Source: Streptomyces sp. GQFP (GTDB taxonomy: Bacteria; Actinomycetota; Actinomycetes; Streptomycetales; Streptomycetaceae). From it: a DNA stretch of 64,000 nucleotides. The position numbers and the translations under genes were made by a program. This document shows, piece after piece, positions 32,466-43,008 of the stretch. The stretch lies in the NCBI RefSeq assembly GCF_021545335.1, contig NZ_CP089312.1:6696001-6760000 (forward strand), read 5' to 3'. Position 1 is the first letter of the stretch; every line of letters begins with the position of its first letter. Under the pieces are notes generated by a model, which saw only the letters and a list, made by a program, of their open reading frames with translations, was not told where the DNA came from and did not search any database.

Positions 32466-32569
32466 CCGCAGCCGTCCCCGGGTTTGTTGCGGAGGGATGA
32501 AATCCGCTTCCGTCCGCGTTGGTGCTTACCGGCGGAGAGTGGAATCGCGGATCTACGAAAGGCACCGGA

Positions 32570-35500
32570 GTGACGGACCAACGGGGGCGGGAGCCGGTAG
32601 CAGAGGGATGGGCGCGGCGGCTGGTCGGATACGCCTGGCGGTATCCGAAGGACGTCGTGCTCTCCCTGGGCGCCTCCCTCGGCGGTATGGCCCTCATGGC
32701 GATCGTCCCGCTGATCACTAAGGTGATCATCGACGACGTCATCGGCGACAAGACCCGTTCGATGGCCCCCTGGGCGGGCGCGCTCGTCGTCGCCGCCGTC
32801 CTCGTCTACGTCCTCACCTACATCCGCCGCTACTACGGCGGCCGGCTCGCCCTCGACGTCCAGCACGATCTGCGGACGGAGATGTTCGGGACGATCACCC
32901 GGCTCGACGGGCGCCGCCAGGACGAGCTGTCGACCGGGCAGATCGTCGGGCGGGCCACCAGCGACCTCCAGCTGATCCAGAGCCTCTTCTACATGCTCCC
33001 GATGACCATCGGGAACCTGCTGCTCTTCCTGATGTCCCTCGCGATCATGGCCTGGCTGTCGATCCCGCTGACCCTGGTCGCCCTCGCCGTCGCGCCCGCC
33101 CTGTGGATCATCGCCAAGCGCAGCCGTACGAAGCTCCACCCGGCCACCTGGTACGCGCAGGCCCAGGCCGCCGCCGTCGCGGGTGTCGTCGACGGCGCCG
33201 TGACCGGCGTACGCGTGGTGAAGGGCTTCGGGCAGGAGGACCAGGAGACCGGGAAGCTCCGGGAGGTCGGGCGGCGGCTCTTCGCGGGGCGGCTGCGGAC
33301 GATCCGCTTCAACTCCGTCTACACCCCGGCCCTCCAGGCCGTGCCCGTGCTGGGGCAGGTCGCGATGCTCGCCGTGGGCGGCTGGCTGGCCGTGGGCGGG
33401 CACATCACGCTCGGTACGTTCGTCGCGTTCTCCACCTATCTCGCCCAGCTCGTGGGCCCGGTGCGCATGCTCGCCATGGTGCTGACCGTCGGCCAGCAGG
33501 CACGGGCCGGTACGGAACGCGTCCTCGAACTCATCGACACCCGGCCCTCCATCTCCGACGGCCACAAGGACCTGCCCGCCGACGCCCCGGCCACCGTCGA
33601 GTTCGACGACGTGTCCTTCGGGTACGACCCCGAGCGCCCCGTCCTCGACGGGCTCAGCCTGGAGATCCGGGCCGGCGAGACCCTCGCCGTCGTCGGGTCG
33701 TCGGGCTCCGGCAAGTCGACCGTCTCTCTCCTCCTGCCGCGCTTCTACGACGTGACGCGCGGCGCGGTCCTCGTCGGCGGCCACGACGTCCGCGAGCTGA
33801 CCAGCGAATCGCTGCGGGCCGCGATCGGGCTCGTCCCCGAGGACTCCTTCCTCTTCTCCGACACCGTCCGCAACAACATCGCGTACGGCCGTCCGGACGC
33901 CACCGAGGAGCAGATCCTCACCGCCGCGCGTGCCGCACAGGCGGACCGTTTCATCGCCGAGCTGCCCCACGGCTACGACACCAAGGTCGGCGAGCACGGC
34001 CTCACCCTCTCCGGCGGCCAGCGCCAGCGCGTCGCACTGGCCCGCGCGATCCTCACCGACCCCCGCCTTCTCGTCCTCGACGACGCCACCTCCGCCGTGG
34101 ACGCGCGCGTCGAGCACGAGATCCACGAGGCACTGAAGCACGTCATGGAGGGCCGGACGACCCTCCTCATCGCCCACCGCCGCTCCACCCTCGGCCTCGC
34201 CGACCGCATCGCCGTCCTCGACGCCGGACGCCTCGCCGACATCGGCACCCACGAGGAACTCCAGGCCCGTTCCGCCCTGTACCGGCGGCTGCTGACCGAC
34301 CCGGACGAGCTGGGCGGAGTCTCTCCAGGCCGCGCCCTGCCCTCCCTGCCGCCCGAGGACACCTCCGTACGGGACGAGCTGGACGCCGAGTTCGATGCCG
34401 AGCGCGGGGTCACCCCCAGGCTGTGGACCGGTGACCGCGAGCGCAAGGACACGGCGTTCGACGGGATGCCGGCCACCCCCGAACTCCTCGCCCAGGTCGA
34501 GGCGTTGCCCCCGGCCGCCGACACCCCGGCCATCGACGAGGCCCGCGCGGTCACGCCCGAGGAGTCGTACGGGCTGAAGCGGCTGCTGCGCGGCTTCGGG
34601 AAGCCGCTGCTGGTGAGCCTCGGGCTCGTCGCCGTGGACGCCGGGATGGGACTGCTCCTGCCGATCCTGATCCGGCACGGCATCGACTCCGGGGTCTCCC
34701 AACTCGCCCTGGGTGCCGTGTGGGTGGCCTCCGCGCTGGCCCTCGTGTCGGTCGTCGTCCAGTGGGCGGCGCAGATCGGCGAGATGCGGATGACGGGCCG
34801 TACCGGCGAACGCGTGCTGTACGCCCTCCGGTTGAAGATCTTCGCCCAGCTGCAACGTCTCGGACTCGACTACTACGAACGGGAGTTGACCGGCCGGATC
34901 ATGACGAGGATGACGACGGACGTGGATGCGTTGTCGACGTTCCTGCAGACCGGCCTGGTCACTGCCTTCGTCTCCGTCGTCACCTTCTTCGGCATCATGG
35001 TCGCCCTGGTCGTGATCGACGTACAGCTCGCGCTCGTCGTGTTCGTGACCATCCCGGTGCTGGTCGTCGGCACGTTCTACTTCCGCCGGGCGAGCGTCAA
35101 GGCGTACGAACTCGCCCGTGAGCGCGTGTCGTTGGTCAACGCAGATCTCCAGGAGTCGGTGTCCGGGCTGCGGATCGTGCAGGCCTTCCGGCGCGAGCGG
35201 GCGGGCGGCGAGCGGTTCGCCGAGGGCAGCGACAGCTACCGCCGGGCACGTGTCCGGGGCCAGTGGCTGATCTCCGTGTACTTCCCCTTCGTACAACTGC
35301 TGGCCTCGGTCGCCGCCGCTGCGGTGCTGATCGTGGGGGCGGGCCGGATCGAGAACGGCACACTGACGACGGGTGCGCTGGTGGCGTACCTCCTCTACAT
35401 CGACCTGTTCTTCGCGCCCGTGCAGCAGCTCTCGCAGGTCTTCGACGGGTACCAGCAGGCGACGGTGTCGCTGGGGCGCATCCAGGAGCTGCTCCAGGAG

Positions 35501-36313
35501 CGGACCTCCACCGAGGCCGTCGAGGAGCCGCTGGAGGTGCTGTCCCTGCGCGGTGACATCGCCTTCGAGGGCGTGGACTTCGCGTACGGGGACGACGAAG
35601 AGGCCCTGAGCGAGGTCGAGTTGACGATTCCGGCGGGGCAGACCGTCGCGTTCGTCGGAGAGACCGGCGCCGGCAAGTCGACGCTCGTGAAGCTGGTCGC
35701 CCGCTTCTACGACCCGACCGGCGGGCGGGTCACCGTCGACGGCACCGATCTGCGCGACCTCGACATCACCTCGTACCGGCATCGCCTCGGGGTCGTGCCG
35801 CAGGAGGCGTACCTGTTCCAGGGGACCGTGCGGGACGCCATCGCGTACGGGCGTCCGGACGCCACCGACGCCCAGGTGGAGGCGGCGGCACGGGCGGTCG
35901 GCGCCCACGACATGATCGCCACGCTGGAGGGCGGCTACCTCCACGAGGTCGCCGAGCGCGGCCGCAACTTGTCGGCAGGGCAACGGCAGTTGATCGCGCT
36001 GGCCCGCGCGGAGCTGGTCGACCCGGACATCCTCCTCCTCGACGAGGCGACGGCGTCACTGGACCTGGCCACCGAGTCCCAGGTCAACCAGGCCACGGAC
36101 CGCCTGGCAGGCCGCCGTACAACCTTGGTGGTAGCCCACCGCCTGACGACGGCGGCCCGCGCAGACCGCGTCGTGGTCATGGCCGACGGCCGAGTCACAG
36201 AAGACGGCACCCACGACGAACTCCTCCAACTGGACGGCCGCTACGCCGAGTTGTGGCGCACGTTCGTAGGCACCCCGGACGAGGAGGAACCGCTCACATC
36301 GTCCCGCGCCTGA
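32570..36313 (+). CDS. Fused ABC exporter (TMD-NBD-TMD-NBD)
   Basis: 1247 aa from GTG 32570; an in-frame start at 32519 lacks an RBS. Each half has a six-helix ABC_membrane domain and an NBD. NBD1: Walker A GSSGSGKST, signature LSGGQRQRVALARA, Walker B LLVLDDATSAVD with Asp instead of catalytic Glu. NBD2: GETGAGKST, signature LSAGQRQLIALARA, ILLLDEATASLD. One degenerate and one consensus ATP site is the hallmark of heterodimeric multidrug/lipid exporters, here fused into one chain. Probable drug or lipid export; substrate unknown. Confidence 0.92.
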   Translation: MTDQRGREPVAEGWARRLVGYAWRYPKDVVLSLGASLGGMALMAIVPLITKVIIDDVIGDKTRSMAPWAGALVVAAVLVYVLTYIRRYYGGRLALDVQHDLRTEMFGTITRLDGRRQDELSTGQIVGRATSDLQLIQSLFYMLPMTIGNLLLFLMSLAIMAWLSIPLTLVALAVAPALWIIAKRSRTKLHPATWYAQAQAAAVAGVVDGAVTGVRVVKGFGQEDQETGKLREVGRRLFAGRLRTIRFNSVYTPALQAVPVLGQVAMLAVGGWLAVGGHITLGTFVAFSTYLAQLVGPVRMLAMVLTVGQQARAGTERVLELIDTRPSISDGHKDLPADAPATVEFDDVSFGYDPERPVLDGLSLEIRAGETLAVVGSSGSGKSTVSLLLPRFYDVTRGAVLVGGHDVRELTSESLRAAIGLVPEDSFLFSDTVRNNIAYGRPDATEEQILTAARAAQADRFIAELPHGYDTKVGEHGLTLSGGQRQRVALARAILTDPRLLVLDDATSAVDARVEHEIHEALKHVMEGRTTLLIAHRRSTLGLADRIAVLDAGRLADIGTHEELQARSALYRRLLTDPDELGGVSPGRALPSLPPEDTSVRDELDAEFDAERGVTPRLWTGDRERKDTAFDGMPATPELLAQVEALPPAADTPAIDEARAVTPEESYGLKRLLRGFGKPLLVSLGLVAVDAGMGLLLPILIRHGIDSGVSQLALGAVWVASALALVSVVVQWAAQIGEMRMTGRTGERVLYALRLKIFAQLQRLGLDYYERELTGRIMTRMTTDVDALSTFLQTGLVTAFVSVVTFFGIMVALVVIDVQLALVVFVTIPVLVVGTFYFRRASVKAYELARERVSLVNADLQESVSGLRIVQAFRRERAGGERFAEGSDSYRRARVRGQWLISVYFPFVQLLASVAAAAVLIVGAGRIENGTLTTGALVAYLLYIDLFFAPVQQLSQVFDGYQQATVSLGRIQELLQERTSTEAVEEPLEVLSLRGDIAFEGVDFAYGDDEEALSEVELTIPAGQTVAFVGETGAGKSTLVKLVARFYDPTGGRVTVDGTDLRDLDITSYRHRLGVVPQEAYLFQGTVRDAIAYGRPDATDAQVEAAARAVGAHDMIATLEGGYLHEVAERGRNLSAGQRQLIALARAELVDPDILLLDEATASLDLATESQVNQATDRLAGRRTTLVVAHRLTTAARADRVVVMADGRVTEDGTHDELLQLDGRYAELWRTFVGTPDEEEPLTSSRA

Positions 36314-38436: not shown

Positions 38437-38480
38437 TTCCAGCAGTTCCAGCAGTTCCACTAGTTCCAATAGCTCCAGGA
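38434..38480. repeat. Degenerate 9-bp tandem repeat after the peptidase stop
   Basis: Five imperfect copies of AGTTCCAGC/T run from the TAG stop onward. No function evident; probably slippage-generated. Confidence 0.5.
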
Positions 38481-38495
38481 TTGCCTGCTCAGGCA

Positions 38496-38539
38496 GCCAC
38501 GACGGCCGACCGGTTCACATTCCGGCCGGCCGTCGTGGC
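38496..38539 (+). terminator. 18-bp hairpin terminator downstream of the peptidase gene
   Basis: GCCACGACGGCCGACCGG / CCGGCCGGCCGTCGTGGC, one mismatch, 8-base loop. It separates the peptidase from the leader peptide/ssuD-like unit. Confidence 0.8.
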
Positions 38540-38569
38540 ATTTACGGATGATGTGTATAGTCCCGCCCC

Positions 38570-38644
38570 ATGGATTCCGGTGTCGAGCTGGTGAAGCGCG
38601 TGCACGTCGACCTGCTCAGGGTCGCCACCGCGCTGTGTAGCTGA
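38570..38644 (+). CDS. Cysteine-type leader peptide upstream of the sulfonate genes
   Basis: 24 codons: MDSGVELVKR then VHVDLLRVATALCS. The basic-xHVDLLRVxxAxC pattern with a Cys codon next to the end is the signature of actinobacterial putative leader peptides found before sulfur-assimilation genes. There, ribosome stalling at Cys codons under cysteine limitation relieves attenuation. 147 bp separate it from the monooxygenase ATG. Too short for ordinary gene callers. Confidence 0.72.
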   Translation: MDSGVELVKRVHVDLLRVATALCS

Positions 38645-38791
38645 CTCCGCGCGCCTGTTTTCGGCGCCTTTCTCCCTCTTCTTCCTCGGGTGCGCCGCCT
38701 CTGCTTTGGCGTGATTCAACGTTGCATCCACGCCGGAACGGCATATTCCCTGCGTATCCCGGACCCGCTCCATCTCCCGTTGGAGACCCCC
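38645..38791 (+). promoter_or_regulatory. Predicted attenuator region with alternative stems
   Basis: GGCGC at 38663-38667 can pair either with GCGCC at 38651-38655 or with GCGCC at 38692-38696. The mutually exclusive stems lie right after the leader peptide stop, followed by a pyrimidine-rich stretch. The arrangement fits leader-peptide attenuation; the pairing is inferred by eye. Confidence 0.45.
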
Positions 38792-39889
38792 ATGACCGTG
38801 CGTCTGCACTGGTTCCTGCCGACCACCGGCGACGACCGCAGCGTGGTCGGTGTCACCGCGCGCGACTCCCTCCAGTCCCGCACCACCACCCGACCGCCCA
38901 CCCTCGACTACCTCGCCCAGGTGGCACGGGCCGCCGAATCCGCCGGCTTCGAGGCCGTGCTGACCCCGACCGGCAGCGACTGCGAGGACTCCTGGCTCAC
39001 CACGGCCGCCCTCATCCCGCAGACCAGCCGGCTGAAGTACCTGGTGGCCTTCCGGCCCGGCGTGATCGCGCCCCCGCTCGCGGCCCAGATGGCGGCCACC
39101 TACCAACGGCTGTCCGGCGGACGGCTGTTGCTCAACATCGTCACCGGCAGCGACGCCGACGAGCAGCGCGGCTACGGCGACTTCCTCGGCCACGACGAGC
39201 GCTACGCCCGCACCGACGAGTTCCTCACCCTCCTCCACACGGCGTGGACAGGGGAGCCGTACGACTACGAGGGCGCCCACTACCGGGTCGCGGGCGGACG
39301 GCTGCGCAGGCCCCCGCTGGCCCGCCCGCCGGTCTTCTTCGGCGGCTCCTCCGAGGCCGCCCTGCCGGTCGCCGCCCGCCACGCGGACACGTACCTCACC
39401 TGGGGCGAGCCCCCGGCCGCCGTCGCCCGCAAGATCGCCCGGGTGCGTGAACTGGCCGCCGCCGAGGGGCGGGAGCTGTCGTACGGGATCCGGCTGCACG
39501 TCATCAGCAGGGACACCGCGCAGGAGGCGTGGGCGGAGGCCGACCGGATCCTCGCCACGCTCGACCCGGCCGCGATCAGGGCCGCGCACGAGCGGTTCGC
39601 GGCCTCCGAGTCGGCCGGGCAGCGCGCGATGGCCGCCCTCAGCCGCGGAAGCACCGACCGGCTGGAGATCCATCCCAACCTGTGGGCGGGTTTCGGCCTC
39701 GTGCGACCGGGCGCCGGCACCGCCCTCGTCGGCAGCCACGAACAAGTCGCCGAGCGCATCGAGGAGTTCGCCTCTCTCGGCATCGAGCACTTCATCCTCT
39801 CCGGCCAGCCCCATCTGGAGGAGGCCATCCGGTTCGGGGAGTGCGTACGGCCGCTGCTGGCGGCCGATGGTCAACTCGCCGCCGCCTGA
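38792..39889 (+). CDS. ssuD: FMNH2-dependent alkanesulfonate-type monooxygenase
   Basis: 365-aa bacterial luciferase-like (LLM) enzyme. It aligns along its whole length with SsuD: HWFLPTTGDD, TPTGSDCEDSWL (active-site Cys), LVAFRPGVIAPPLAAQMAAT, NIVTGSDADEQ, TYLTWGEPP, IHPNLWAGFGLVRPGAGTAL and ILSGQPHLEEA. It releases sulfite from a sulfonate using FMNH2 and O2. It sits under a cysteine leader peptide and before a sugar-type ABC transporter, so the substrate may be a sulfonated sugar (SmoC-like role). No flavin reductase lies nearby. Confidence 0.88.
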   Translation: MTVRLHWFLPTTGDDRSVVGVTARDSLQSRTTTRPPTLDYLAQVARAAESAGFEAVLTPTGSDCEDSWLTTAALIPQTSRLKYLVAFRPGVIAPPLAAQMAATYQRLSGGRLLLNIVTGSDADEQRGYGDFLGHDERYARTDEFLTLLHTAWTGEPYDYEGAHYRVAGGRLRRPPLARPPVFFGGSSEAALPVAARHADTYLTWGEPPAAVARKIARVRELAAAEGRELSYGIRLHVISRDTAQEAWAEADRILATLDPAAIRAAHERFAASESAGQRAMAALSRGSTDRLEIHPNLWAGFGLVRPGAGTALVGSHEQVAERIEEFASLGIEHFILSGQPHLEEAIRFGECVRPLLAADGQLAAA

Positions 39890-39937
39890 CGTTCTCTGAC
39901 GTCACCTCAACAACCCTCCACCGAAAGGAAATCCGTC

Positions 39938-41236
39938 ATGCCCTCGACCCTCGACAGACGAACAGCCCTCCGTCTCTTCGGCGCCGCCGGACTCGGCCTC
40001 GCCACCGCCGCGTGCGCCGGCCCCGGCGGCGGCTCGGGCGCGGCGGACGCGAGCGCCTCCCCCTCAGCCCTCGCCACCTCCGGCGCCGTCAAGGGCACCG
40101 TCTCCTTCGCCCACTGGCGGGCCGAGGACAAGGCGGTGATCGCCGAGCTGATCAAGGCCTTCGTCAAGAAGTACCCGGACGCCGGTGTCGAGCAGGACAT
40201 CTCGCCCTCCGCCGACTACCAGTCGACCGCCCTCCGCCGCATCCAGGGCTCGAAGACCGGCGACCTGTTCACCTCGTTCCGGGGCGCCCAGTTCGAGCAG
40301 ATCGTGAAGGCGGGCGTGTACGCGCCGCTGACCGGCACGGACGTCACCGGCAAGTACCAGAAGAGCCTGACAACTCCCGGCGCGGCGAAGGGAGTTCAGT
40401 ACGGACTGCCCTACCAGCTCGTCTTCAACATGCCGCTCGCCAACACCGACGCCCTCGACAAGGCCGGCCACACCAGCGCGCCGAAGGACTGGGACGGCTT
40501 CCTCCAGCTCCTGGACGACCTCAAGGGCAAGGGCTACACCCCGATCGCCTGGCCCGGCGGCGACACCGCCAACGCGGGCCAGCTGCTGAACACCATGGTC
40601 ATGAACAACGCGCCCAGCGACGACATGTTCACCAAGATCGAGTCGGGCGAGTACAAGGCGACGGACGACTGGTTCATCACCACCCTGGAGCAGTACGCCC
40701 AGCTGGCACCGTACTTCCAGGCCCGCGCCACCGGTTCGACGACCGACGCCGTGACCCAGCTGTTCGCCGAGGGCAAGGCGGGCCTGCTGGCCACCGGTTC
40801 CTTCCAGATGGCGGGCGTGCGCGCACTCGGCGCCAAGTTCCCCTTCGACCTCGTCGCGCCGATCACCACGACCGCCGAAAAGGCCAGGTACGAGGGCGTG
40901 TTCAACACCACCTTCATCCTCGGCGTCAACAGCGCGTCCGACGTCCAGCCGGCCGCCTACGCCTTCCTGGAGTTCCTCAGCGACCCGGCGAACGCGGGCA
41001 CCTACGCCAACGGCACCGGCCAGCACGTCACCGTCGAGGGCGTCGACTACACCAACGCCGACCTCAAGTCGGTCGCGCCCTGGCTGACGAAGAAGACGCT
41101 GCTCGCTCCGCGGTTCCAGTTCCTGAACCTCGACATCCGTACGGCTGTCGAGAACGCGGCGGTCGCGGTTGTCGGGGGCAAGAAGCCGGCGGAGGCGGCC
41201 GAGGATGCCCAGCGTGTCATCGACCAGAAGCGGTGA
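39938..41236 (+). CDS. Extracellular solute-binding lipoprotein (family 1, sugar type)
   Basis: 432-aa binding protein. A twin-arginine N-region (DRRTALRLFGAAG) and lipobox LATAAC (Cys about 27) indicate a Tat-exported lipoprotein. The rest matches family 1 sugar-binding proteins: GTVSFAHWRAEDKAVIAELI, YGLPYQLVFNMPLANTDAL, GKAGLLATGSFQMAG and LEFLSDPANAG. First transporter gene, 48 bp after the monooxygenase. No ATPase is encoded here; Streptomyces sugar transporters commonly share one distant MsiK-type ATPase. Confidence 0.9.
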   Translation: MPSTLDRRTALRLFGAAGLGLATAACAGPGGGSGAADASASPSALATSGAVKGTVSFAHWRAEDKAVIAELIKAFVKKYPDAGVEQDISPSADYQSTALRRIQGSKTGDLFTSFRGAQFEQIVKAGVYAPLTGTDVTGKYQKSLTTPGAAKGVQYGLPYQLVFNMPLANTDALDKAGHTSAPKDWDGFLQLLDDLKGKGYTPIAWPGGDTANAGQLLNTMVMNNAPSDDMFTKIESGEYKATDDWFITTLEQYAQLAPYFQARATGSTTDAVTQLFAEGKAGLLATGSFQMAGVRALGAKFPFDLVAPITTTAEKARYEGVFNTTFILGVNSASDVQPAAYAFLEFLSDPANAGTYANGTGQHVTVEGVDYTNADLKSVAPWLTKKTLLAPRFQFLNLDIRTAVENAAVAVVGGKKPAEAAEDAQRVIDQKR

Positions 41237-41258
41237 TCGCTCCGCGGGGTGGGCGGTT

Positions 41259-42191
41259 TTGAACGCGCGGGTCGGTGGGGGCTTGTCGCACAGTTCCCCG
41301 CGCCCCTGTCGGGGCGCGTCACAGCGGCGGCGTGCTTCACGGGCGCTGTGGCTGTTCCCCGTGCCCGCACTCGCTCTCTACCTGTTCTTCTTCGCCTACC
41401 CGACCCTCCAAGCGGTTCAGTACGCACTCACCGACTGGGACGGGTACAGCGCCACCTATCACAGGGTGGGGCTGCGTAACTTCTCCGAACTCGCCACCGG
41501 GGACGACGTGTTCAGGAACGCGGCCGAGAACAACCTCAAGCTGACGGTGACCGTCGTCCTCGCGCAGACGGCGCTGGCGCTGCTCCTCGCGCTGTACCTC
41601 GTACGGACGACGAAAGCCTCAACTCTCCTGCGGGCGCTGTTCTTTCTGCCCACCGTGCTGTCGTCGGTGGCCGTCGCCTTCGTGTGGCGGTTCGTGTACG
41701 ACCCGGACGGTGGGCTGCTCAACTCGGCGCTCAGAGCGGTGGGGTTGGACTCCTGGCAGTCGGTGTATCTCGGCAATCCGGACGCGGCCGTGTTCTGGCT
41801 GGCGCTGACCCAGGTGTGGTTCCACGCGGGTCAGATGATGGTCGTCTACATCGCCGGACTCCAGGCGATACCCAAGGAGTTGTACGAGGCCGCCGAACTG
41901 GACGGCGCCGGGCGCGCGGCCCGGTTCCGGCACATCACCTGGCCGCTCGTCGCACCGGCCACCGGGATCGTGGTCGCCTACACCACCGTGCAGTCCTTCA
42001 AGGCCTTCGACCTGGTCCTCGGCCTCGGCGGCAACCCGCCAGGACCCGCCCTCGACCTGCTCTCCACCCGGGTCTACACGACCTTCTCCAACAACCAGTT
42101 CGGCTACGCCGCCGCCCAGTCCCTGGTGTTCATGGCGCTGATCGCGCTGCTCACCTGGGTCCAGCGGCGGGCGCTGCGGAGGGCTGCCTGA
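41259..42191 (+). CDS. Sugar ABC transporter permease 1 (MalF type)
   Basis: About 310 aa with six membrane helices, beginning at ALWLFPVPALALYLFFFAYP, and the EAA loop YEAAELDGAGRAARFRHITW that docks the ATPase. Start uncertain: TTG 41259 with GGGGTGGGCGG upstream, or TTG 41283. Both precede or fall within a dispersed repeat whose translation (SHSSPRPCRG) becomes the N-terminus. The next permease starts one base after its stop. Confidence 0.85.
   Translation: MNARVGGGLSHSSPRPCRGASQRRRASRALWLFPVPALALYLFFFAYPTLQAVQYALTDWDGYSATYHRVGLRNFSELATGDDVFRNAAENNLKLTVTVVLAQTALALLLALYLVRTTKASTLLRALFFLPTVLSSVAVAFVWRFVYDPDGGLLNSALRAVGLDSWQSVYLGNPDAAVFWLALTQVWFHAGQMMVVYIAGLQAIPKELYEAAELDGAGRAARFRHITWPLVAPATGIVVAYTTVQSFKAFDLVLGLGGNPPGPALDLLSTRVYTTFSNNQFGYAAAQSLVFMALIALLTWVQRRALRRAA
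41276..41320. repeat. Dispersed intergenic repeat, copy B, inside the permease 5' end
   Basis: GGGGCTTGTCGCACAGTTCC CCGCGCCCC followed by the GTCGGGGCGCG return arm. This is the reverse orientation of copy A's core. It overlaps the permease N-terminal codons. Confidence 0.75.
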
Positions 42192-42192
42192 C

Positions 42193-43008
42193 GTGCTCCA
42201 CAAAACCGTACGCCCCGCCGTCCTCATCCTGGGCGCCCTGGCCGTCGTACTGCCGCTGCTGGTGGTGCTGTTCGGCACGTTCAAGTCCCTGCCGCAGCTC
42301 TTCGACTCACCGCTGGCCCCGCCGTCGTCGCCCACCCTCGACAACTACCGCCGGGCGGTGGACGAGGGCGGACTCGGTACGGCCTTCACCAACAGCCTCG
42401 TCGTCACGGCGGGCGCGGTCGCGCTGACCCTGGTCGTCGCGAGCCTCGCCGCGTTCTTCTGCGCGCGGATGCCCGGGCGGATCGGCTGGGCGGTGTTCGG
42501 GGTGCTCGTCGCGGGGCTCGCCGTGCCCGCGCAGGCGGCGATCGTCCCGCAGTACGTGCTCTTCGACCGGCTCGGCCTGACGGACAGTCTGCTCGGCCTC
42601 GGCCTGGTGGACACGACGATGACGCTCCCGACGGCGGTGTTCATCCTCGGCGGCTTCCTCCGGACGATCCCCGAAGAGCTGTACGAGGCCGCCGAGTTGG
42701 ACGGTGCCGGACCACTGCGGACCTTCCGTTCTCTCGCCCTCCCGCTGACGAAGCCGGCGCTCGCGACGACCGGCATCTTCCTGTTCGTCATGGACTGGAA
42801 CGACCTGCTCTACCCGCTGCTCTTCGTCCGCTCCCAGGAACAGCGCACGCTGCCACTGGCGTTGCTGGACTTCCAGGGCGAGTTCCTCACCCAGTACCCG
42901 CTGCTGTTCGCGGGCGTCGTCATCGCGTCGGCGCCGGTGGTCGTCGTGTACGTGCTGCTCCAGCGGTACTTCGTGTCCGGGCTGACGGCGGGAGCCGTAA
43001 GAGGCTGA
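42193..43008 (+). CDS. Sugar ABC transporter permease 2 (MalG type)
   Basis: 271 aa from GTG 42193, one base after the previous stop. Six membrane helices and EAA loop LYEAAELDGAGPLRTFRSLA. Completes the lipoprotein-permease-permease set. Followed by a convergent lipoprotein gene 68 bp away. Confidence 0.9.
   Translation: MLHKTVRPAVLILGALAVVLPLLVVLFGTFKSLPQLFDSPLAPPSSPTLDNYRRAVDEGGLGTAFTNSLVVTAGAVALTLVVASLAAFFCARMPGRIGWAVFGVLVAGLAVPAQAAIVPQYVLFDRLGLTDSLLGLGLVDTTMTLPTAVFILGGFLRTIPEELYEAAELDGAGPLRTFRSLALPLTKPALATTGIFLFVMDWNDLLYPLLFVRSQEQRTLPLALLDFQGEFLTQYPLLFAGVVIASAPVVVVYVLLQRYFVSGLTAGAVRG

Follow-up and report, generated by a model that had tools for sequence, protein, structure and literature searches.

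A conserved operon of Streptomyces and Actinoplanes that most likely takes up and desulfonates a sulfosugar for sulfur

The described systems closest to the operon reported here are the sulfo-SMO and sulfo-ASMO pathways, whose gene names we take to be Smo in Agrobacterium and SquD in Novosphingobium. Sulfo-ASMO is listed for alpha- and beta-Proteobacteria (2026 review, PMC12890257), and sulfo-SMO clusters, identified by SmoB together with SmoC, are placed in aquatic Actinomycetota (2026 study, PMC13372026), so C-S cleavage of sulfoquinovose (SQ) is not new to this phylum as an idea. For the sulfoglycolysis (sulfo-EMP) clusters of Arthrobacter AK01 and AK04, an ABC transporter has been proposed for SQ (PMC8873060). 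Here we describe an operon within a 64,000-nucleotide stretch of Streptomyces sp. GQFP (NZ_CP089312.1, positions 6,696,001 to 6,760,000; hereafter the window, numbered from its first base) that joins an SsuD-branch sulfonate monooxygenase to a sugar-type importer behind a short leader peptide. The operon is real and conserved and most likely serves the uptake and desulfonation of a sulfosugar for sulfur, and we consider it fairly probable that the sulfur comes from SQ or a small SQ glycoside, for example sulfoquinovosyl glycerol.

Gene content and conservation of the operon

The window belongs to a genome of 8.3 Mb in one contig, and the nearest relatives of the locus are found in Streptomyces. 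All genes of the operon lie on the forward strand. The monooxygenase (38792..39889, 365 residues) is assigned to the SsuD branch of FMNH2-dependent enzymes by profile scores, a tree and comparison of its structural model. It is followed by a family 1 solute-binding lipoprotein (39938..41236, 432 residues) of a transporter family found in SQ clusters, then by a MalF-type permease with a GTG start (41214..42191) and a MalG-type permease (42193..43008, 271 residues), both assigned by profile scores and by homology to cluster members; no ATPase gene follows MalG in the operon. The binding protein scores 83 bits against PF01547, both permeases match BPD_transp_1, and Arg7 and Cys26 of the lipoprotein N-terminus are invariant, and Arg8 nearly so, among 39 aligned sequences. 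The original prediction of an SsuD-like enzyme, a family 1 lipoprotein, two permeases and a leader peptide therefore stands gene by gene and position by position.

The likely start of MalF is GTG 41214, which, like the ATG of its orthologs, overlaps the stop of the binding protein. A dispersed repeat lies between the binding protein and MalF (41237-41345); its core, GTCGCRCAGTTCCCCGCGCCCCT, occurs at five sites within the window at no more than three mismatches, and the repeat is absent from nine compared orthologs. The MalF frame runs through it, which gives the permease some 29 extra N-terminal residues. An S37 peptidase gene upstream was considered as an operon member and rejected, being upstream in just two of the nine other Streptomycetaceae loci (L064 and L066).

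A pattern scan with the binding protein over the GTDB collection (84,980 species), confined to close relatives, returned 42 distinct loci, all from Actinomycetota by their titles, and their gene content was assessed by tblastn. SsuD stands directly before the binding protein, MalF and MalG in 15 of them (L063-L070, L073, L077 and L080-L084). With the window and one further genome (G510) added, the arrangement occurs in 17 distinct loci, ten from Streptomycetaceae (the window included) and seven from Actinoplanes or Paractinoplanes. Contigs seen twice were counted once: G208 is the contig of L068, L044 from that contig was left out, and L151-L157, several of which share contigs with loci of the GTDB scan, entered neither counts nor trees. 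Conservation of gene order, the test that the original prediction had named, is thus observed. We rejected the idea that the genes are chance neighbours, the arrangement recurring in 17 distinct loci; moreover, because the 17 linked SsuDs form a single clade, the order is not accidental. The module is nevertheless narrow: in whole-genome samples, with scoring limited to the few best candidates of each genome, the binding protein was found in 2 of 199 genomes of the genus and 12 of 345 of the class.

In one of the 42 loci (L087, from Enemella), a TauD/AtsK-type Fe/alpha-ketoglutarate dioxygenase gene (L087:6915-7847) directly precedes the transporter. The enzyme is closer to the alkylsulfatase AtsK and its kin than to E. 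coli TauD; judged by this relatedness, it may act on sulfate esters and is possibly a third sulfur-releasing partner of the transporter.

The importer in sulfoglycolysis clusters

Eighteen of the 42 loci have this binding protein and these permeases in a sulfoglycolysis cluster, without SsuD, and the same pairing occurs in a further genome (G087). Across these 19 loci, identity to the window's proteins is 49-63% for the binding protein, 54-67% for MalF and 53-62% for MalG, and homology of all three, together with trees, places the window's importer in the transporter family of sulfo-EMP clusters. Because that family is otherwise found mainly in such clusters, even for members about 40% identical, the sulfosugar substrate proposed in the original prediction gains independent support.

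All 18 sister loci carry a YihT-type aldolase, 15 a kinase (all except L078, L086 and L094) and 16 an SftI-like isomerase. The remaining two, L098 and L100, share a protein of the N-acetylglucosamine 2-epimerase family in the isomerase's place, the family to which YihS presumably belongs. In L074 and L085 the neighbours comprise a DeoR regulator, a PfkB kinase, the aldolase, an isomerase bearing an L-fucose isomerase C-terminal domain, a GH31 protein, an M24-type protein, an aldehyde dehydrogenase and a TauE exporter. The tested aldolase has sulfofructosephosphate aldolases as its best solved relatives (E = 2.1e-88; next family, 4.6e-18), and the tested kinase has sulfofructose kinase (3.7e-33; a sugar kinase next, at 7e-31). 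GH31 is present in most sister clusters, L074 and L085 included, and the tested one is closer to YicI than to YihQ; it may represent another type of sulfoquinovosidase.

These sister enzymes also bear on an alternative, in which the transporter imports another sulfosugar, such as sulfofucose or another sulfonated glycoside, that SsuD then desulfonates. The tested isomerases match the model of SftI, the sulfoquinovose isomerase, and no other, yet at 266-288 bits against a cut-off of 700; the GH31 leans towards YicI; and a pathway for sulfofucose is on record (PMC12421959). Against this, the best matches of the kinase and aldolase are enzymes of the SQ pathway, and we regard a different sulfosugar as unlikely.

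The association of transporter and sulfoglycolysis extends to distant relatives. Three small genomes (G+C content of the stretches, 0.44-0.45) encode binding proteins that share about 40% identity with that of the window; the isomerase is found in all three, and the kinase and aldolase are in view in two; the third stretch, L149, begins at the first base of its contig, within MalG. L148 and L150 (stretch G+C content 0.45) are compact sulfo-EMP clusters with such a distant family member; the L148 isomerase had no useful relative in the PDB.

Forty polar or aromatic positions are common to the 17 SsuD-linked and 22 sulfo-EMP-linked binding proteins, and no position separates the two sets at thresholds of 94% and 90%. 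In the binding-protein tree, the SsuD-linked proteins and five Actinoplanes rows without an adjacent SsuD form a clade of 22 (support 97/95). Because the other rows are mainly sulfo-EMP-linked, as is the outgroup, the tree suggests that the sulfo-EMP link is the older and the SsuD link derived.

The monooxygenase clade and the leader peptide

The window's monooxygenase scores 255 bits against PF00296 and 450.3 bits against the SsuD model TIGR03565, below its cut-off of 518.2. Its structural model (mean pLDDT 83.6) is nearest to MsuD (Z-score 45.6, root-mean-square deviation 2.0, 351 aligned residues, 55% identity), with SsuD next, and two SQ monooxygenase structures (7olf and 7oh2) follow at Z-scores of 37.5 and 37.2 with 32% identity. 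Membership of the SmoC branch was rejected on these identities, 32% as against 55% to MsuD.

In a tree with 52 other actinobacterial SsuDs, the 17 linked enzymes form one clade (support 98/91), and the binding protein is beside none of the 52. Likewise, among 30 SsuD loci, the three with at least 84% identity (the window included) all adjoin the binding protein, and none of the remaining 27, at 63-66% identity, does. By the filter used, eight positions of the linked clade, P306 among them, differ from other SsuDs. W7 and C64 are kept in 17 of 17 linked enzymes and R305 in 16; the adjoining P306 is also found in 16 of 17, where 50 of 52 others have glycine. Gln339 occurs in nine of the 17, the window's included (Tyr or His in the rest), and Ser284 in ten, again including the window's (His in the rest). 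We take these departing positions, P306, Q339 and S284, to lie by the SsuD active site. One linked SsuD (L070:6165-7211) aligns with the window's over residues 1-322 only, and its branch in the tree is long; a frameshift may have altered its C-terminus.

Other SsuDs keep different company. The two unlinked loci scanned, L048 and L053, have an NMT1/SsuA-type binding protein, an ATPase and a permease. The nearest SsuD outside the linked clade, L118, is preceded by an SsuA-family gene (197.6 bits, cut-off 163.5), and its contig stops about 150 bases past SsuD, with the downstream genes out of view. No SsuABC-type transporter is found beside the window's monooxygenase. It is also the only SsuD-branch enzyme found in its genome (5 of 55 candidates scored, 10 of 31 PF00296 loci checked), and that genome has genes at other sites for four NMT1-type binding proteins, one above the SsuA cut-off. 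Both observations would fit an SQ or SQ-glycoside transporter beside an ordinary broad-range alkanesulfonatase, co-placed for sulfur supply and also using sulfonates that other transporters import. A linked clade of its own, with changes beside R305, speaks against such a generalist, which we hold to be less probable still than a different sulfosugar.

Upstream of the monooxygenase, a leader open reading frame of 24 codons (38570..38644, forward strand) encodes MDSGVELVKRVHVDLLRVATALCS, ending in LCS before the stop, and is a candidate cysteine attenuator. A putative -10 box, TATAGT (38556..38561, forward strand), ends 8 bases 5' of its ATG, and TGTGTATAGTCC is conserved ahead of nine of nine leaders; a leaderless transcript from this box is likely on these grounds. 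Within 450 bases upstream of the operon the leader was found in nine of the ten Streptomycetaceae loci, the exception being L069. Among these nine leaders 27 sites vary, 12 at third, nine at first and six at second codon positions. The leader is thus a conserved short reading frame with a Cys codon by its stop, as expected of a cysteine attenuator, although that codon is single; it is TGT in all nine, the rarer Cys codon within the window (23 TGT, 104 TGC). GC-rich inverted repeats, as judged by eye, lie behind several leaders, and an Rfam search of 38440-38900 gave nothing above the gathering score, its one match being at chance level. In the Piscicoccus locus (L099:7198-7665), a gene for an Rrf2-family regulator directly precedes the binding protein, possibly another sulfur or redox control.

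In 12 of 17 stretches (L046-L062), a related leader, whose family consensus is mostly RGHIDLLRVASAAC, lies upstream of an SsuD without this transporter and on its strand, with no matches on reversed sequences; of the two NMT1/SsuA-type stretches scanned, L048 has it and L053 does not. From these leaders we judge it probable that the operon responds to cysteine supply, in contrast to a pathway for carbon catabolism. Cysteine leader reading frames lacking clear terminators have been described in other Actinobacteria (PMC1262725), and among the eight leaders listed in an S. lividans reannotation, cysteine is assigned to none (PMC8079986). The leader letters DLLRVA had no match in the literature searched.

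Proposed route and comparison with known systems

The original prediction placed the flavin reductase and sulfoquinovosidase outside the window, and this is what we find: the genome has ten SsuE-family (FMN_red) proteins and six GH31 matches, none of them within the window. Beside the operon, a search that did not extend to GH188 (PMC10755693) found no SmoB-type, SsuE-family or GH31 gene. Where a cluster has no SsuE, other flavin reductases may serve, according to a 2022 review (PMC9594981). The MalK-type OB domain has four matches in the genome; two of these proteins were scored, and one, at 466 bits, exceeds the cut-off of the UgpC-type subfamily (432 bits). Sugar importers of Streptomyces share one ATPase, MsiK. 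A search of the genome for a YihT-type aldolase, run without a positive control, found none, and the route may scavenge sulfur without a dedicated carbon branch.

From the observed gene content, gene order, relatedness and kept leader, we infer the following ligand, reaction, reductase, ATPase partner and regulation. The lipoprotein would capture the sulfosugar outside the cell, and its import through MalF and MalG would be powered by a MalK/MsiK-type ATPase whose gene lies elsewhere. The monooxygenase, supplied with FMNH2 by a reductase also encoded elsewhere, would cleave the C-S bond to give sulfite and 6-dehydroglucose, and the sulfite would be assimilated to cysteine. Scarcity of cysteine would turn the operon on through the leader peptide.

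Several observations weigh against this reading. SsuD enzymes are promiscuous. In eight of the 42 loci (five from Actinoplanes, two from Nocardioides and one from Piscicoccus), SsuD and recognisable SQ enzymes are both missing, and the leader is found in none of the seven Actinoplanes loci over the 450 bases upstream. With a distant outgroup, support for the branch of SsuD-linked binding proteins falls to 85/48, and what the sister clusters import is likewise predicted from their enzymes. No aldo-keto reductase (SmoB/SquF) was found among ten Pfam-scanned flanking genes (30511-50834, excluding the reading frame at 32519-36313), five of which had no match; the SmoB search was confined to these flanks. 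Nor was a sulfoquinovosidase found among the three full GH31s of the genome, at 254, 172 and 211 bits against a YihQ-type cut-off of 553, GH188 not being searched; the best candidate, L106, was rejected, since it fits an alpha-xylosidase model (1243 bits, cut-off 606). The genome is rated 78% complete, which makes such absences soft. SmoF is a weak, distant profile match to the binding protein (E = 1.9e-7) and is absent from the 50 structure-comparison entries shown, though the two proteins may be kin.

The binding-protein model (mean pLDDT 88.6) has raffinose- and chitin-oligosaccharide-binding proteins as its nearest solved relatives, as would be expected of an ordinary sugar importer that neighbours SsuD by accident. 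This is very improbable, since the genes adjoin in 17 distinct loci from two families and the rest of the transporter family occurs mainly in sulfoglycolysis clusters.

We therefore return to an operon for sulfosugar desulfonation, through which these soil bacteria would probably obtain sulfur from SQ, an abundant plant sulfosugar. The broader proposal, to which we give even chances, is that actinomycete SQ desulfonation arose independently of SmoC and SmoF, by joining an ssu-type SsuD to the SQ importer of sulfo-EMP clusters under cysteine-leader control, for sulfur and not carbon; the importer would then be a swap-in part, used with sulfo-EMP enzymes, with SsuD and once with the L087 dioxygenase. 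If true, soil actinomycetes (Streptomyces and Actinoplanes) would be users of SQ for sulfur, by a C-S cleavage route whose proteins differ from those of the route in Proteobacteria. The operon offers a precise protein pair to test. No report of SQ use by Streptomyces appeared in the literature searched, as judged by titles and the beginnings of abstracts.

Like sulfo-SMO, the operon pairs a sugar-type ABC importer with an FMNH2-dependent monooxygenase from the SsuD superfamily. Unlike sulfo-SMO, its monooxygenase is closer to MsuD and SsuD, its binding protein is remote from SmoF, and in place of an adjacent SmoB, SsuE-family reductase or GH31 it has a cysteine leader. With the SsuD alkanesulfonate operons of Streptomyces it shares the SsuD branch and a related leader; those scanned (L048 and L053) have an NMT1/SsuA-type transporter with its own ATPase, whereas the window has a family 1 lipoprotein with MalF and MalG and no ATPase. 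The sister loci resemble the Arthrobacter AK01 and AK04 clusters in their YihT aldolase, PfkB kinase, aldehyde dehydrogenase, TauE and ABC transporter (PMC8873060). Unlike Arthrobacter sulfo-EMP, the window's operon dispenses with those enzymes and is expected to cleave the C-S bond, not a C-C bond.

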